From Pleurocapsales cyanobacterium LEGE 06147 (GTDB lineage Bacteria > Cyanobacteriota > Cyanobacteriia > Cyanobacteriales > Xenococcaceae): a stretch of DNA of 46,121 bases. Location: positions 1 through 46,121 of the forward strand of contig JADEWQ010000043.1 in NCBI GenBank assembly GCA_015207585.1, written 5' to 3'. Made by a program: the position numbers and the translations under genes. This document shows, piece after piece, positions 2,030-46,011 of the stretch. Position 1 is the stretch's first letter. Each line of letters opens with the position of its first letter. The notes under the pieces are model-generated. The model was not told where the DNA came from. It saw only the letters and a list, made by a program, of their open reading frames with translations, and searched no databases.

Positions 2030-3907
2030 TTAAACAGTTGCCGGAACTTGCTCGGGTAGTCGAGCGCGATCTAGCAGATTTTGTAGTTCTTCTCCCTCAA
2101 TCACTTCTACTTCAAGAATTTTTTGGGCAATCTCCTCCAATAAATCCCGATTGTGCTTGAGGATAGCTAAAGCTTTTTGATGAGCAGTTTCTACGATTTC
2201 TTTTACTTCTTCATCGATAGCTTTTGCCGTGTCATCACTCACCATGCGGCGAGGATTCATCATGCCATCCCCAAGGAAATTAGTTTGCTGTCCTTTTTCA
2301 TAAGCAAGAGGTCCTAAAACTTTACTCATACCATAGGCTGTAACCATTCTTTCTGCTAAATCGGTAGCCCGTTGCAAGTCGTTTGATGCCCCTGTAGTAA
2401 TGCTACCAAAAACAATTTCTTCTGCTGCTCGCCCACCGAGAAGAGTAGTAATTTGGTCGCGCAACTCTGACTCGGATAGTAAAAAGCGGTCTTCTGTAGG
2501 CATTTGCAAGGTGTAACCCAATGCTGCCATGCCCCGGGGAACGATAGAAATTTTTTGTACCTTGCCACCGCCAGGCATTACTGCACCGACCAAAGCGTGA
2601 CCGACTTCATGATAAGCAACGATTTGTTTTTCTTTATCATTGAGGACGCGGCTTTTCTTCTCTAAACCAGCTACTACTCGCTCGATAGCTTCGTAGAAAT
2701 CTGCTTGAGTTACCTTTTCTCGTTGATTGCGGGCTGCAAGCAAGGCAGCTTCGTTGACGAGGTTAGCTAAATCTGCCCCAGCGAAACCAGGAGTACGAGT
2801 AGCCACTTGCTTGAGGTCAACATCTACGTCTAGCTTGATCTTAGCAGCGTAGATTTCTAGAATCTTCAGGCGACCTGCTAAATCGGGGCGGTCTACCAAT
2901 ACTTGGCGGTCAAAACGTCCCGGACGCAACAATGCAGGATCCAAAGTTTCCGGACGGTTAGTTGCAGCTAAGACAATTACGGTAGCATCGCCGGCAGAAA
3001 AACCATCCAATTCAGTTAACAACTGGTTGAGGGTTTGCTCTCTTTCGTCATTACCGCCAATAAAGCCGCTGCCAGCACGTGATTTCCCAATGGCATCTAA
3101 TTCGTCGATAAAAATAATACAGGGTGCTTTCTTTTTCGCTTGTTCAAACAAGTCTCTTACTCTAGCTGCACCCGCACCGACAAATAGTTCGACAAATTCC
3201 GAACCAGAGATACTAAAAAAAGGTACTCCTGCTTCGCCAGCGACTGCTTTTGCCAGTAGAGTTTTACCCGTTCCAGGAGGTCCGACTAATAATACGCCTC
3301 GGGGAATTCGCGCACCTATAGCTTTGTAGCGTTGAGGTGTCTTTAAAAATTCAACAATTTCGGCTAATTCTGCTTTGGCTTCTTCTACACCAGCAACATC
3401 GTCAAAAGTAACTTTATTGGCATCTTCCTCTACATAAACCCTAGCCTTGCTTTTAGTAAAAGAAAGAGCCCCTTGAGGTCCGCCACCGCCAGCACGACCG
3501 AGGAAAAATTGCCAAATAGCAACAAAGATCAGGGGTGGAATTACCCAACCTAATATATTGCCTACCCAACTATTTTTCGGGGGTGGTGCCGCTGCAAACT
3601 CTATGCCTTTGGCTTCTAAACGTTTGGGTAATTCTAAATCGAAGATAGGGGTAGTTCTGAGATATTGTCCTGGTTGACCCTCTTCTCCTTTTAGTTCGTA
3701 GATAATCTCATTTTGACCTACCGAAACCCTCGATACCTTGCCATCTTCTACCTGATCGATAAAGAGGCTATAAGGAACTCGGGGAATAGGATTGCCAAAT
3801 AGTTGCGGGAACAATAAATTAATCAATAAAAATAAACCCGCGATCGAGAAGAGTATATTTGCGATCAGGCGCGATCGCGATCTCGGAGGTTTGTCTTTAA
3901 CACTCAT
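2030..3907 (-). CDS. ftsH: ATP-dependent zinc metalloprotease FtsH
   Basis: This 625-residue membrane AAA+ protease degrades damaged or misassembled membrane proteins; in cyanobacteria FtsH complexes take part in photosystem quality control. Two membrane helices lie at about residues 14-36 and 115-137, flanking a lumenal/periplasmic domain. The AAA module has Walker A GPPGTGKT at 209-216, Walker [10 protein letters not shown] at about 264-272, and a second region of homology ending RPGRFDR near 328-334. The zinc site HEVGH is at 433-437. Length and motifs are complete. The N-terminal sequence resembles the FtsH1/FtsH4-like cyanobacterial class more than FtsH2, but I am not certain of the paralogue. 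It is transcribed divergently from the alkaline phosphatase. Confidence 0.97.
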
Positions 3908-43109: not shown

Positions 43110-43616
43110 TTAAATTCGCTCGCGACTCGCAATAATCGTTTTGATTGGCAATATAAGCGAACATTCTGCATCTTTTAAAGGAATAAAGCCATATTTTAGG
43201 TAAAAATTTCTAGCTTCTTCATACATAGCATCTACCCTGACAGCAAATATCCCCATTTCTGAACTAATACGAACTGCACGAGATAAAACGTGCATCAGCA
43301 AAACTTTACCTAAGCCTTTCCCTTGCATCTTCTTATCCACTGCTAATTGTCCAATTAACATCACGGATGCGGGATATTTCGGTAGTTTTTGATTTAAAGA
43401 ATCTGGAATATTAGCAAATTCTATACTTAAAGCACTGGTGCAATAGTAACCTGCAATTTCTTTGCTATTCTCAAACGTCGCTACAAAAGTAATAGAATAC
43501 CGTTTTTTCTGATTTTGCCAAGCATACTTCTTTAAATAGTCGTTAAGTTGTGGTTTCCCACAGTCAAAAGCTGACTTGTCAAAACTTTTGTCAAGAGGAC
43601 TAAAAATCCATCGCAC
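43110..43616 (-). CDS. GNAT acetyltransferase toxin (TacT-like)
   Basis: A 168-residue GCN5-type acetyltransferase of the type II toxin group (TacT/AtaT-like), which in studied cases acetylates the amino group of charged tRNA and stops translation. The N-terminal part has FDCGKPQLNDYLKKYAWQNQ, the typical FxCGxxxLDxFL motif. The acetyl-CoA loop is KMQGKGLGKVLLMHVL, and the C-terminal YLKYGFIPL helix-strand follows. The catalytic Tyr would be in this last segment. It lies 5 bp downstream of the DUF1778 gene, and this pairing is what identifies it as a toxin. Confidence 0.9.
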   Translation of the reverse strand: MRWIFSPLDKSFDKSAFDCGKPQLNDYLKKYAWQNQKKRYSITFVATFENSKEIAGYYCTSALSIEFANIPDSLNQKLPKYPASVMLIGQLAVDKKMQGKGLGKVLLMHVLSRAVRISSEMGIFAVRVDAMYEEARNFYLKYGFIPLKDAECSLILPIKTIIASRERI

Positions 43617-43621
43617 CCTGT

Positions 43622-43897
43622 TTATACCTCGTACTCTTGTTGAAATCCTTTCATAGCTTCAACTAAATCTTGGTTTGGTTTTGGCGGATTGGCTATTAAG
43701 GATAAAAATAAATCTCTGTCTCGATCCGACAACACTAATTTTTGATGTTTGGCGATATCCGCTTTAGCTATTTCTAAACAGTTAGCTAGTAAATAGGCAC
43801 TTAAACTAATGCCTTTAATGGAGGCTGCGGTTTCTAATAATTCTTTCTGTTCTTTACTAACCCTGAGATCGATGCGGTTGGTTTTTGATGCAGACAT
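43622..43897 (-). CDS. DUF1778 antitoxin (TacA-like, RHH)
   Basis: A 91-residue antitoxin. The N-terminal ribbon-helix-helix (RIDLRVSKEQKELLETAASI, KGISLSAYLLANCLEIA) binds the operon's own promoter. The C-terminal tail (LSDRDRDLFLSLIANPPKPN, EAMKGFQQEYEV) wraps around and blocks the GNAT toxin in known pairs. It is first in a two-gene operon with the toxin, as is usual. The operator should lie in the AT-rich stretch just upstream, 43900-43970, where TTTTATTTTAAAATACTGG is visible. Confidence 0.92.
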   Translation of the reverse strand: MSASKTNRIDLRVSKEQKELLETAASIKGISLSAYLLANCLEIAKADIAKHQKLVLSDRDRDLFLSLIANPPKPNQDLVEAMKGFQQEYEV

Positions 43898-44366: not shown

Positions 44367-44896
44367 TTTACCCAACTTTTAAATGTTGTATTTCAACAGG
44401 ATTTAGTATAAATCGGGCTTTCCCAGATTATCTTAACTGCAAGAACCTCTTAAACAAGATAAATGACCGGGATTGTTAGCTGCTAATTAGTGTTGTGGTG
44501 CACAGGAGAATACTGAATTGCCATGCATGTCATTAATCTTGCGATACCCAAGGCTTAAAATATTCTCAGCGAACCAATTGCTGCCGAGCAACGAGCTCTT
44601 TGGGTGCTTTCGCACACCACAGATCGAACTACTGTCCTAATCGATCATCTCCTGGGTGTTTTCGGACTCACCAATCACCTTGAAGAACGAGTGCAATACC
44701 TTTGTATCGAGCAAGATAACGTTCCCAATCATTAGATTTAATGCAGCGATCGCTAATTAATTTAATAACAAAAAACGAGTGACAAAGGACAAATAACAAG
44801 CAACTCAACAAAACTTTATCCCTAAACATGAGCTACCTCAGAGACGAGACTGAAACTTGATGTCACAGTAAGAGTATCGAGTTGGGGATAAGACTC

Positions 44897-45040
44897 ATGA
44901 CAGCCACTCTCAATGTGGCCACTGCACCAAGTCATCAAGTTTTAGCCGCAGCAGGTAAAAAGATTTTACATCCTGGAGGAAGAAAAGCAACCGAACAACT
45001 GTTTGCTCGGGCTAATTTTCAACCAGGACAAACAGTATAA
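44897..45040 (+). pseudogene. truncated SAM-dependent methyltransferase
   Basis: A 47-codon frame reads MTATLNVATAPSHQVLAAAG, KKILHPGGRKATEQLFARAN and FQPGQTV, then stops. This is the N-terminal lead of a class I methyltransferase found in cyanobacteria, where the next residues would be the SAM-binding LELASSFG-type motif I. Nothing resembling it follows in any frame. Only the lead is left, and the gene cannot be functional. It ends 44 bp before the cupin-globin gene, suggesting that the two once formed an operon. Confidence 0.65.
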
Positions 45041-45084
45041 GCCATTTGTGCAGGAATAACACAGAATTTATAGGAGAAAAAATT

Positions 45085-45906
45085 ATGAATACTGCGATCA
45101 CTTCGTGCCTCAGCAAAGCTGAGACCGCAACACCTAAAAATTCTTTTACTGCTACTTTGCAGGATTTAATTGAATATCCCACAAGTGGCATTTTCAGTAA
45201 AGTTTTACTCAAAGATAACAACAGTCAATATAGTTTGTTTTGTTTGGCAGCAGGTACGAAAATTGACGAACACACTTCCCCTCGCAACGCTGTCATAACA
45301 GTATTGGAAGGAACGGGAAACCTTAATTTAGAAGGAAAAGATATTGCTTTAGCACCAGGAGTATTTGTATTTATGCCAGCAAATGCACCTCACGCTTTGC
45401 AAGCAAAAGCAAATCTCGCATTTGTCCTTACTTTATCGGAACATTCTCCAGCCAAGCGGGAAATCAGTCAACAAACAATCGATATCGTCAAATCTACTGC
45501 CCCTATCCTCAAACAACACGGTCAAAAAATTACTACTCGGATGTACGAGATTATGTTTCGTAAATATCCAGAAGTGAAAGCACAGTTTGATATGTCCGCA
45601 CAAGCTAATGGTACTCAACCAGCTAAACTTGCTACCGCAGTATATAGCTATGCCACTCATATCGATAATCTCGAAGCATTAAAAGTAATGGTAGATAAAA
45701 TCGCTCATCGTCACGTACAAGCTCACGTTTTACCAGAACAATATCCCATAGTGGGGGAATGTTTATTACAAGCAATTAAAGATGTCTTGAGAAATGCAGC
45801 GACGGAAGAAGTCATGACAGCTTGGACTGAAGCCTATCAAGTATTAGCTGAGGTTTTTATTAATCGAGAATACCACATCTATCAAACTACTTCGGATTGT
45901 CATTAG
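45085..45906 (+). CDS. cupin-globin fusion protein (flavohaemoglobin-type globin without reductase)
   Basis: A 273-residue protein. Residues ~20-120 form a cupin (LAAGTKIDEHTSPRNAVITV, LEGTGNLNLEGKDIALAPGV, MPANAPHALQA) with likely ligands His63, Glu75 and His103. Residues ~127-268 form a globin of the flavohaemoglobin type (SQQTIDIVKSTAPILKQHG onward). Expected haem-pocket residues are all there: B10 Tyr154 (RMYEIMF), proximal His210 (IAHRHV), Tyr220 (PEQYPIVGE) and Glu262 (NREYHIY). The FAD/NAD reductase that normally follows is absent; the frame ends and heptamer repeats begin. The ATG at 45085 sits 8 bases after AGGAG. A role in nitric oxide handling is inferred from the globin. Whether this is a designed fusion or a product of gene wreckage is open. 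Confidence 0.88.
   Translation: MNTAITSCLSKAETATPKNSFTATLQDLIEYPTSGIFSKVLLKDNNSQYSLFCLAAGTKIDEHTSPRNAVITVLEGTGNLNLEGKDIALAPGVFVFMPANAPHALQAKANLAFVLTLSEHSPAKREISQQTIDIVKSTAPILKQHGQKITTRMYEIMFRKYPEVKAQFDMSAQANGTQPAKLATAVYSYATHIDNLEALKVMVDKIAHRHVQAHVLPEQYPIVGECLLQAIKDVLRNAATEEVMTAWTEAYQVLAEVFINREYHIYQTTSDCH
45094..45128. repeat. palindromic element overlapping the cupin-globin start
   Basis: GCGATCACTTCGTGCCTCAG followed by CAAAGCTGAGACCGC: a 35-nt stretch with a CTCAGCAAAGCTGAG hairpin. It shares the GCGATC-C-GTGCCTC arrangement with the 33-nt element at 44157-44189. It encodes residues 4-15 of the cupin-globin protein. Confidence 0.5.
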
Positions 45907-45968
45907 TTATTAGTCATTGGTCATTAGTTACTAATCAACACAAAGGACGAATGACAAAGGACAAATTA
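45901..45968. repeat. heptamer repeat region (TCATTAG/AATGACA type)
   Basis: TTAGTTATTAGTCATTGGTC followed by ATTAG and, in the other orientation, AAAGGACGAATGACAAAGGA. It starts at the stop codon of the cupin-globin gene and marks the point where the reductase domain would otherwise begin. Confidence 0.8.
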
Positions 45969-46011
45969 ATGTCAAACCAGGTAAGGAGAATTACCGGTAC
46001 TCAAACAAAAA

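Follow-up and report, generated by a model that had tools for sequence, protein, structure and literature searches.

What might a cyanobacterial protein do that carries a cupin and a flavohaemoglobin-type globin in one polypeptide, without a reductase domain behind the globin? The question was raised by the initial annotation of a contig of Pleurocapsales cyanobacterium LEGE 06147, of which 46,121 nucleotides were analysed (the window, by which we mean this whole stretch). The features of this locus and of related loci are collected in Table 1. The gene neighbours of the fusion and the promoter signal that goes with them suggest a role for it in how the cell copes with NO.

Table 1. Positions of the features discussed, in the window unless a genome (G) or locus (L) is named
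Feature	Position	Strand	Remarks
Palindromic promoter box TGAGCTACCTCA, Crp/Fnr-type half-sites	44829..44840	.	sole TGAGnTAnCTCA in the window
SAM methyltransferase remnant	44897..45040	+	47 codons, then stop; homologous to residues 1-52 of a 255-aa protein
Cupin-globin fusion gene	45085..45906	+	ATG start, single open frame, 273 aa
Cupin domain, residues about 15-117	45127..45435	+	conserved C53, E62, H63, R67, N68, N100, H103
Linker, residues about 118-127	45436..45465	+	length constant in 23/23
Flavohaemoglobin-type globin domain, residues 128-267	45466..45885	+	Tyr154, Phe168, Gln178, His210, Tyr220, Glu262
norB near solo cupin	G029, G031, G043, G051, G088		same contig, within about 4 kb
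168-aa and 111-aa families, example	L087:1662-2171 and 2238-2573		no Pfam match

Domain make-up of the fusion protein

Both Cupin_2 (residues 51–109, 41.8 bits against a cut-off of 27.2) and Globin (residues 152–257, 59.4 bits against a cut-off of 22) passed their Pfam cut-offs, which bears out the description of a complete globin joined to a cupin in one ORF. AraC_binding, a related cupin-type domain, was barely at its Pfam cut-off (residues 59–119, 21.1 bits). The NCBIfam flavohaemoprotein model gave 196.9 bits over residues 127–270, against a cut-off of 432, and the match was confined to positions 2–145 of its 399. Thus, the C-terminal FAD/NAD(P)H reductase domain of Hmp is absent, as had been noticed initially, and the globin stops where that domain would start. 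An in-frame TTG is present upstream of the ORF, at 45046. Around the linker, no ATG, GTG or TTG codon was found in 16 of 23 fused loci, the window among them, and one was found in the other 7; separate synthesis of the globin is therefore unlikely in most of these loci.

Matches of the globin part in the PDB were thermoglobin (7dih), Vitreoscilla haemoglobin (1vhb) and the globin portions of 1gvh and 1cqx, over residues 126–270. Thermoglobin and Vitreoscilla haemoglobin, both single-domain F-family proteins and the best structure matches over residues 126–267, stand alone, whereas the globin studied here shares its polypeptide with a cupin, in a putative NO-response operon. Globin-coupled sensors consist of an N-terminal sensor globin and a C-terminal output domain. 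In the present protein, it is an Hmp-type globin that occupies the C-terminal end, and Pfam identified no DNA-binding, kinase or cyclase output domain.

Tyr154, Phe168, Gln178, His210, Tyr220 and Glu262 were invariant in the globin set (34 rows, or 33 where one row, being partial, has no residue). We take Tyr154 to be B10, Gln178 to be E7, His210 to be F8, and Tyr220 and Glu262 to be the equivalents of Tyr95 and Glu137 of Hmp. The haem residues that had been named beforehand (B10 Tyr, proximal His, Tyr95-like and Glu137-like) were all among them. The domain is an F-type globin with a NOD haem pocket, and the B10 Tyr, E7 Gln, F8 His and Tyr95/Glu137 pair are those of the NO dioxygenase Hmp. Hmp, however, carries a FAD/NAD reductase, whereas the fusion has an N-terminal cupin attached instead.

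Metal-dependent cupin enzymes have the ligands HxH...E...H in their motifs 1 and 2. In the window, motif 1 reads H63-x-S65 with Ala69 in place of the expected Glu, and motif 2 retains H103; as judged from the sequence motif, the protein keeps two of the four usual metal ligands and departs from the metal-dependent pattern. The claim of a complete cupin consequently holds for the fold match and not for a canonical metal site, which does not make the site one devoid of metal. When 62 cupins were compared (23 fused and 39 others), His63 and His103 were invariant, position 65 was Ser in 57 and Ala in 5, and position 69 was Ala in 61 and Ile in 1. Arg67 and Asn68 were each conserved in 61 of the 62, and Cys53, Glu62 and Asn100 each in 60. 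The nearest solved cupins by sequence to the N-terminal part, 3rns and 1yhf, are both small Cupin_2 proteins. They share the altered motif 1 (one His, then Ser or Ala) and the His of motif 2 (in 3rns, in domain 2), but, unlike the cupin of the fusion, they are not joined to a globin. We know of no activity for either of them.

Distribution, selection and origin

A search for the cupin plus globin architecture led to a collection of 23 fused loci, the other 22 proteins being 69–85% identical to that of the window. Full-length fused homologues were found in 16 of 100 genomes searched (own genome included): 14 of 27 in the family of the window versus 2 of 73 elsewhere in the order. Scanning genome contigs gave 49 loci with 12 full-length fusions, 7 of which were set aside because contigs of the same length were already represented among the relatives; the 5 that did not duplicate the first set came from Cyanomargarita, strain SU3, Cyanothece BG0011, Okeania and Trichodesmium. 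An even sample of the phylum (292 genomes, E limit 1e-50) contained two genomes with the fusion, one being that of the window; the fusion is thus restricted to a clade.

The linker was free of gaps in the alignment of the 23 fused proteins. Pairwise dN/dS ratios (NG86, pairs with dS of 0.1–1.5; one pair without usable dS fell outside these limits) had a median of 0.14 for the cupin (210 of 253 pairs), 0.12 for the globin (218 of 253) and 0.48 for the linker (136 of 253). Values above 1 were found for 18 linker pairs and for no cupin or globin pair. The two domains are both under purifying selection and the linker is relaxed. A one-off rearrangement without selection, the case against the fusion put forward by the initial annotation, is excluded by the 23 fused loci with low dN/dS.

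The same source mentioned separate cupin and flavohaemoglobin genes lying near each other in cyanobacteria. We found no match above the NCBIfam Hmp cut-off in the 100 genomes (own included, several of them incomplete drafts), and hence, by that measure, no relative in which this locus holds a cupin gene and, apart from it, one for a full-length flavohaemoglobin; the cut-off is strict, being passed in 2 of 14 control genomes, and none among the matches listed spanned both globin and reductase. Because no relative exceeded this cut-off, there is no support for a local hmp gene that lost its reductase part.

In LEGE 10410 (G021), cupin and globin follow each other as adjacent but separate genes. 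The same order is found in CSU_1_1 (G023), with a frame-broken globin on a contig of low coverage. G016 has hcp immediately after the cupin, and G009 has a partial cupin match just before hcp. In a cupin tree, the 23 fused rows formed a group with the split G021 and G023, with G016, where the cupin precedes hcp, and with the solo cupin of G005; the support was 95/79 for all 27 rows and 95/98 for 24 of them, in an alignment of few columns. Since this tree groups the fused rows but has few columns, we favour, without considering it proven, a single fusion followed by splits or losses. The globin tree was poorly resolved for the order of fused and solo forms, solo globins being interspersed among the fused ones. 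The simplest reading is that a globin from within the regulon came to lie between cupin and hcp and was joined to the cupin gene, and that splits and losses occurred afterwards. In G002, a second, partial cupin copy is present just downstream of the fusion gene (L032:7162-7347), with methyltransferase remnants upstream.

A literature search that reached few subscription papers found no publication on a cupin–globin fusion, in line with the initial annotation, to which none was known. The sequence databases already contain it, e.g. as WP_015212059.1 ('globin domain-containing protein'), which is encoded on plasmid pSTA7437.01 of Stanieria cyanosphaera PCC 7437. Sphingomonads have pairs of globin and DUF1971, which are separate genes, unlike the fusion. 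A Sphingobium plasmid (pl5, L152) carries genes for an HPP protein, an Rrf2 regulator, a single-domain globin and DUF1971 side by side, a parallel proteobacterial assembly, and the order in Novosphingobium is trHb - DUF1971 - hmpA. DUF1971 was rejected as a homologue of the cupin of the fusion, as BLASTP gave no match between this cupin and the Sphingobium DUF1971 protein.

Gene neighbours and a shared promoter box

A class I SAM methyltransferase gene lies directly upstream of the fusion, intact in 15 of the 23 loci and as a remnant in 4 (including the window). It was not found within 2.5 kb in the other 4, which brings the loci with a broken or missing cis methyltransferase to 8. A methyltransferase gene also directly precedes the solo cupin in 25 of 29 named solo-cupin loci, and another contig of the window's own genome holds a second cluster with an intact methyltransferase–cupin–YwiC arrangement. 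Because genes of this cyanobacterial cupin family mostly adjoin a SAM methyltransferase, the most likely task of the cupin is to bind or process some small molecule in concert with this enzyme.

On the same strand and at most 4 kb downstream, hcp was present in 8 of the 23 fused loci, 4 of the 23 having less than 2.5 kb of downstream sequence; one of these eight genes was identified as hydroxylamine reductase/Hcp. The contig of the window ends 215 bases 3' of the fusion gene, and Hcp was not found in this genome. In the fully sequenced S. cyanosphaera PCC 7437, the intact methyltransferase–fusion pair adjoins HPP and Crp/Fnr genes, the latter encoding WP_015212056.1, without hcp. An association of the fusion with hcp at the genome level was not retained, as the difference was not significant either overall (hcp in 11 of 16 versus 34 of 84 genomes, p = 0.054) or within the family (10 of 14 versus 5 of 13, p = 0.13). 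In the first neighbourhood set (21 loci: the window, 17 fused, 2 split and the second cupin of its genome), a Crp/Fnr-family gene was present in 11 loci, an HPP-type transporter gene in 4 and a CLC-type channel gene in a single genome. The 29 named solo-cupin loci contained a Crp/Fnr gene or a piece of one in 12 cases, YwiC in 4, and a NorB-type gene or fragments in 3 (the one at L084 checked by Pfam). The 100 genomes have 12 norB genes, 5 of them near a solo cupin (Table 1).

Two further families recur downstream of solo cupins, one of about 168 residues (13 loci) and one of about 111 residues (4 loci). In the window, short repeat-like filler ('gtcattagt/gacaaaggacaaa', as seen by eye) flanks the locus at 44760-44820 and 45906-45970 and might be related to the methyltransferase deletion. 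On the minus strand, at 43110-43897, Pfam matches indicated a GNAT acetyltransferase gene with a TacA1-like antitoxin gene ahead of it, likely a TacAT-type toxin–antitoxin pair.

The majority of the upstream regions have a CATGAGCTACCTCAAAGAC-like sequence in common. In 21 of 25 fused or split operons, and in 14 of 19 solo-cupin operons examined (18 of the 29 named loci and the one of the window's own genome), the 300 bp ahead of the first gene contained the pattern TGAGnTAnCTCA; L054, one of the 4 fused or split misses, has it slightly further out. Across 47 named loci (636,257 bases), there were 44 such boxes versus 0 for reversed-pattern controls. All but one of them (43 of 44) lay within 500 bp upstream of a gene for the methyltransferase (27), the cupin or cupin–globin (6), a solo globin (4), NorB (2), Hcp (1), YwiC (1) or the 168-residue family (2); closeness to cupin and globin genes is partly built in, since the loci were fetched for encoding a cupin or a globin and related sequences are non-independent, and less so for norB, hcp and YwiC. 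The four box-bearing solo globins have no cupin in the fetched stretch.

The window's own genome contained 6 strict boxes versus 3 hits of the reversed-pattern control: that of the window, one about 190 bp upstream of norB, two within ORFs and two intergenic ones near genes without clear relevance. TGAG-N4-CTCA was present upstream of only 3 of the 12 norB genes, own included, one of the sites lying 830 bp before the matched domain. The lone hcp genes of G004 and G005 bear TGAGnTAnCTCA. Only 2 of 11 upstream regions of lone hcp genes scored as high as the operon sites, in a scoring whose background was raised because background windows were drawn from box-holding loci; of the 45 hcp genes, 19 had been taken, 7 of them went unscored (ORF start motif unrecognised) and 1 had a short upstream region. 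In a Thermosynechococcaceae MAG (L086), five TGAGnTAnCTCA boxes occur in a 9.5-kb locus, at 239, 1527, 2895, 4381 and 6179; they precede the methyltransferase–cupin pair, a gene of the 168-residue family, an unlabelled gene, the YwiC region and norB fragments, with an alternative oxidase gene among them.

Rodionov et al. 2005 (PMC1274295) describe a cyanobacterial HcpR regulon in which a Crp/Fnr-family regulator targets hcp and norB, with the box TTGACnnnnGTCAA. In some relatives, hcp and norB, here putative targets, likewise have a Crp/Fnr-type regulator gene close by, which may be a point of resemblance to that regulon; the box differs, being TGAGCTACCTCA in the window and following TGAGnTAnCTCA as a shared pattern. 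A site of the HcpR type described there, TTGACTTAAGTCAA, is found at four other norB/hcp genes. The neighbouring Crp/Fnr protein gave weak matches to many Crp-family structures, DNR included, and a third contig of the window's own genome encodes a homologue that is 60% identical. The identity of the neighbouring protein with the regulators beside two norB genes that have the HcpR-type box amounts to only about 25%; it is therefore assigned to a separate subfamily and was dismissed as an HcpR orthologue. We infer that this neighbouring regulator probably reads TGAGnTAnCTCA.

Function of the fusion and alternative readings

The haem pocket, the company of hcp and norB and the shared box point to an NO-related function. 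On balance, the fusion is probably a two-domain NO-response protein under the shared box, with a globin acting as NO dioxygenase thanks to an outside reductase and a cupin working beside the methyltransferase. The C-terminal globin would most likely convert NO and O2 to nitrate and would be re-reduced by a separate cellular reductase, ferredoxin/FNR-type enzymes being the obvious candidates in a cyanobacterium, while the small molecule bound or processed by the N-terminal cupin would most likely be handled jointly with the SAM methyltransferase. NO would be the signal. The box, whose probable reader is the Crp/Fnr regulator with a gene close by in relatives, would turn on the operon and, with it, the hcp gene for anaerobic removal of NO, as well as norB in some of the genomes. 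Hcp and NorB work under low O2; in an O2-evolving cell, the globin could be the NO dioxygenase. Counting against this NO-response reading are the genome of the window, in which Hcp was not found, and its broken cis methyltransferase, and likewise the non-significant co-occurrence of fusion and hcp, the small share of norB and lone hcp genes with a site, and the three control hits in the window's own genome.

That the protein needs an outside electron donor, or else acts as a binder or sensor, had been proposed from the start and agrees with the missing reductase domain. No dedicated reductase gene was recognised within the operon in the fused loci examined. Several relatives without Hmp have an apparently membrane-anchored, Hmp-like FAD/NAD reductase with a C-terminal ferredoxin-like tail (L101:1198-2559, minus strand, and others; topology by eye), a possible partner of single-domain globins. 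It cannot be a general partner, since the window's own genome has just one counterpart, which matches weakly (6e-25). The review PMC3820574 reports that single-domain truncated globins of Synechococcus and Synechocystis give protection against NO, with FNR-type donors supplied as separate proteins; one of these globins is reportedly not induced by NO, and the same text cautions against declaring a NOD function without turnover. The globins described there are of the truncated type, whereas that of the fusion is of the flavohaemoglobin type.

The missing reductase domain and the lack of a recognised dedicated reductase gene in the operon would also suit a binder or sensor of NO or O2, in which gas on the globin alters the activity of the cupin or of a partner, without turnover. 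The constant length of the linker, which suggests a fixed arrangement of the domains, and the borderline match of the cupin part to the ligand-binding AraC_binding family go in the same direction. We nevertheless consider this role plausible but unlikely, since all proximal and distal residues of the NOD type are retained, an output domain of the DNA-binding, kinase or cyclase kind is lacking, and box-bearing solo globins exist without a cupin in the fetched stretch. A role in O2 supply has been proposed for Vitreoscilla haemoglobin, which is among the closest solved relatives, and by analogy the globin might deliver O2 to a cupin dioxygenase, with channelling favoured by the covalent linkage. 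This appears very improbable for a cupin that has only two of the four canonical metal ligands, whose closest solved relatives (3rns and 1yhf) are without named activity, and whose operon partners are hcp and norB-type genes.

The fusion might also be a historical by-product, a stop codon having been lost between co-transcribed genes of the same regulon, with domains that work independently. The separate genes of LEGE 10410 and CSU_1_1, the cupin or partial cupin ahead of hcp in G016 and G009 and the fast evolution of the linker speak for it; yet the fusion has been maintained in 23 loci from several families with a constant linker length, and we hold this explanation to be unlikely. A bolder reading, which seems quite doubtful to us, gives the cupin the functional place of the flavin module. 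The cupin would bind a metabolite that is redox-active or of the thiol/nitroso kind and that the methyltransferase next door makes or caps, and would couple its chemistry directly to the haem of the globin. This would amount to a new class of NO dioxygenase, under the control of an undescribed cyanobacterial NO regulon with the box TGAGnTAnCTCA, parallel to HcpR.

Our preferred reading remains the NO-response protein whose globin relies on an outside reductase. What had been noticed initially did not extend to the methyltransferase remnant, the promoter box or the context of hcp and norB. From its sequence and context, the protein looks like a globin of a known type in a new arrangement of domains, and its setting resembles an undescribed NO regulon. 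Oxygenic phototrophs must remove NO amid abundant O2, and none of the 100 genomes passed the NCBIfam Hmp cut-off; the fusion points to how some of these organisms may remove NO. It would also tie a family of cupin–methyltransferase pairs to NO and provide a promoter signal that is testable.
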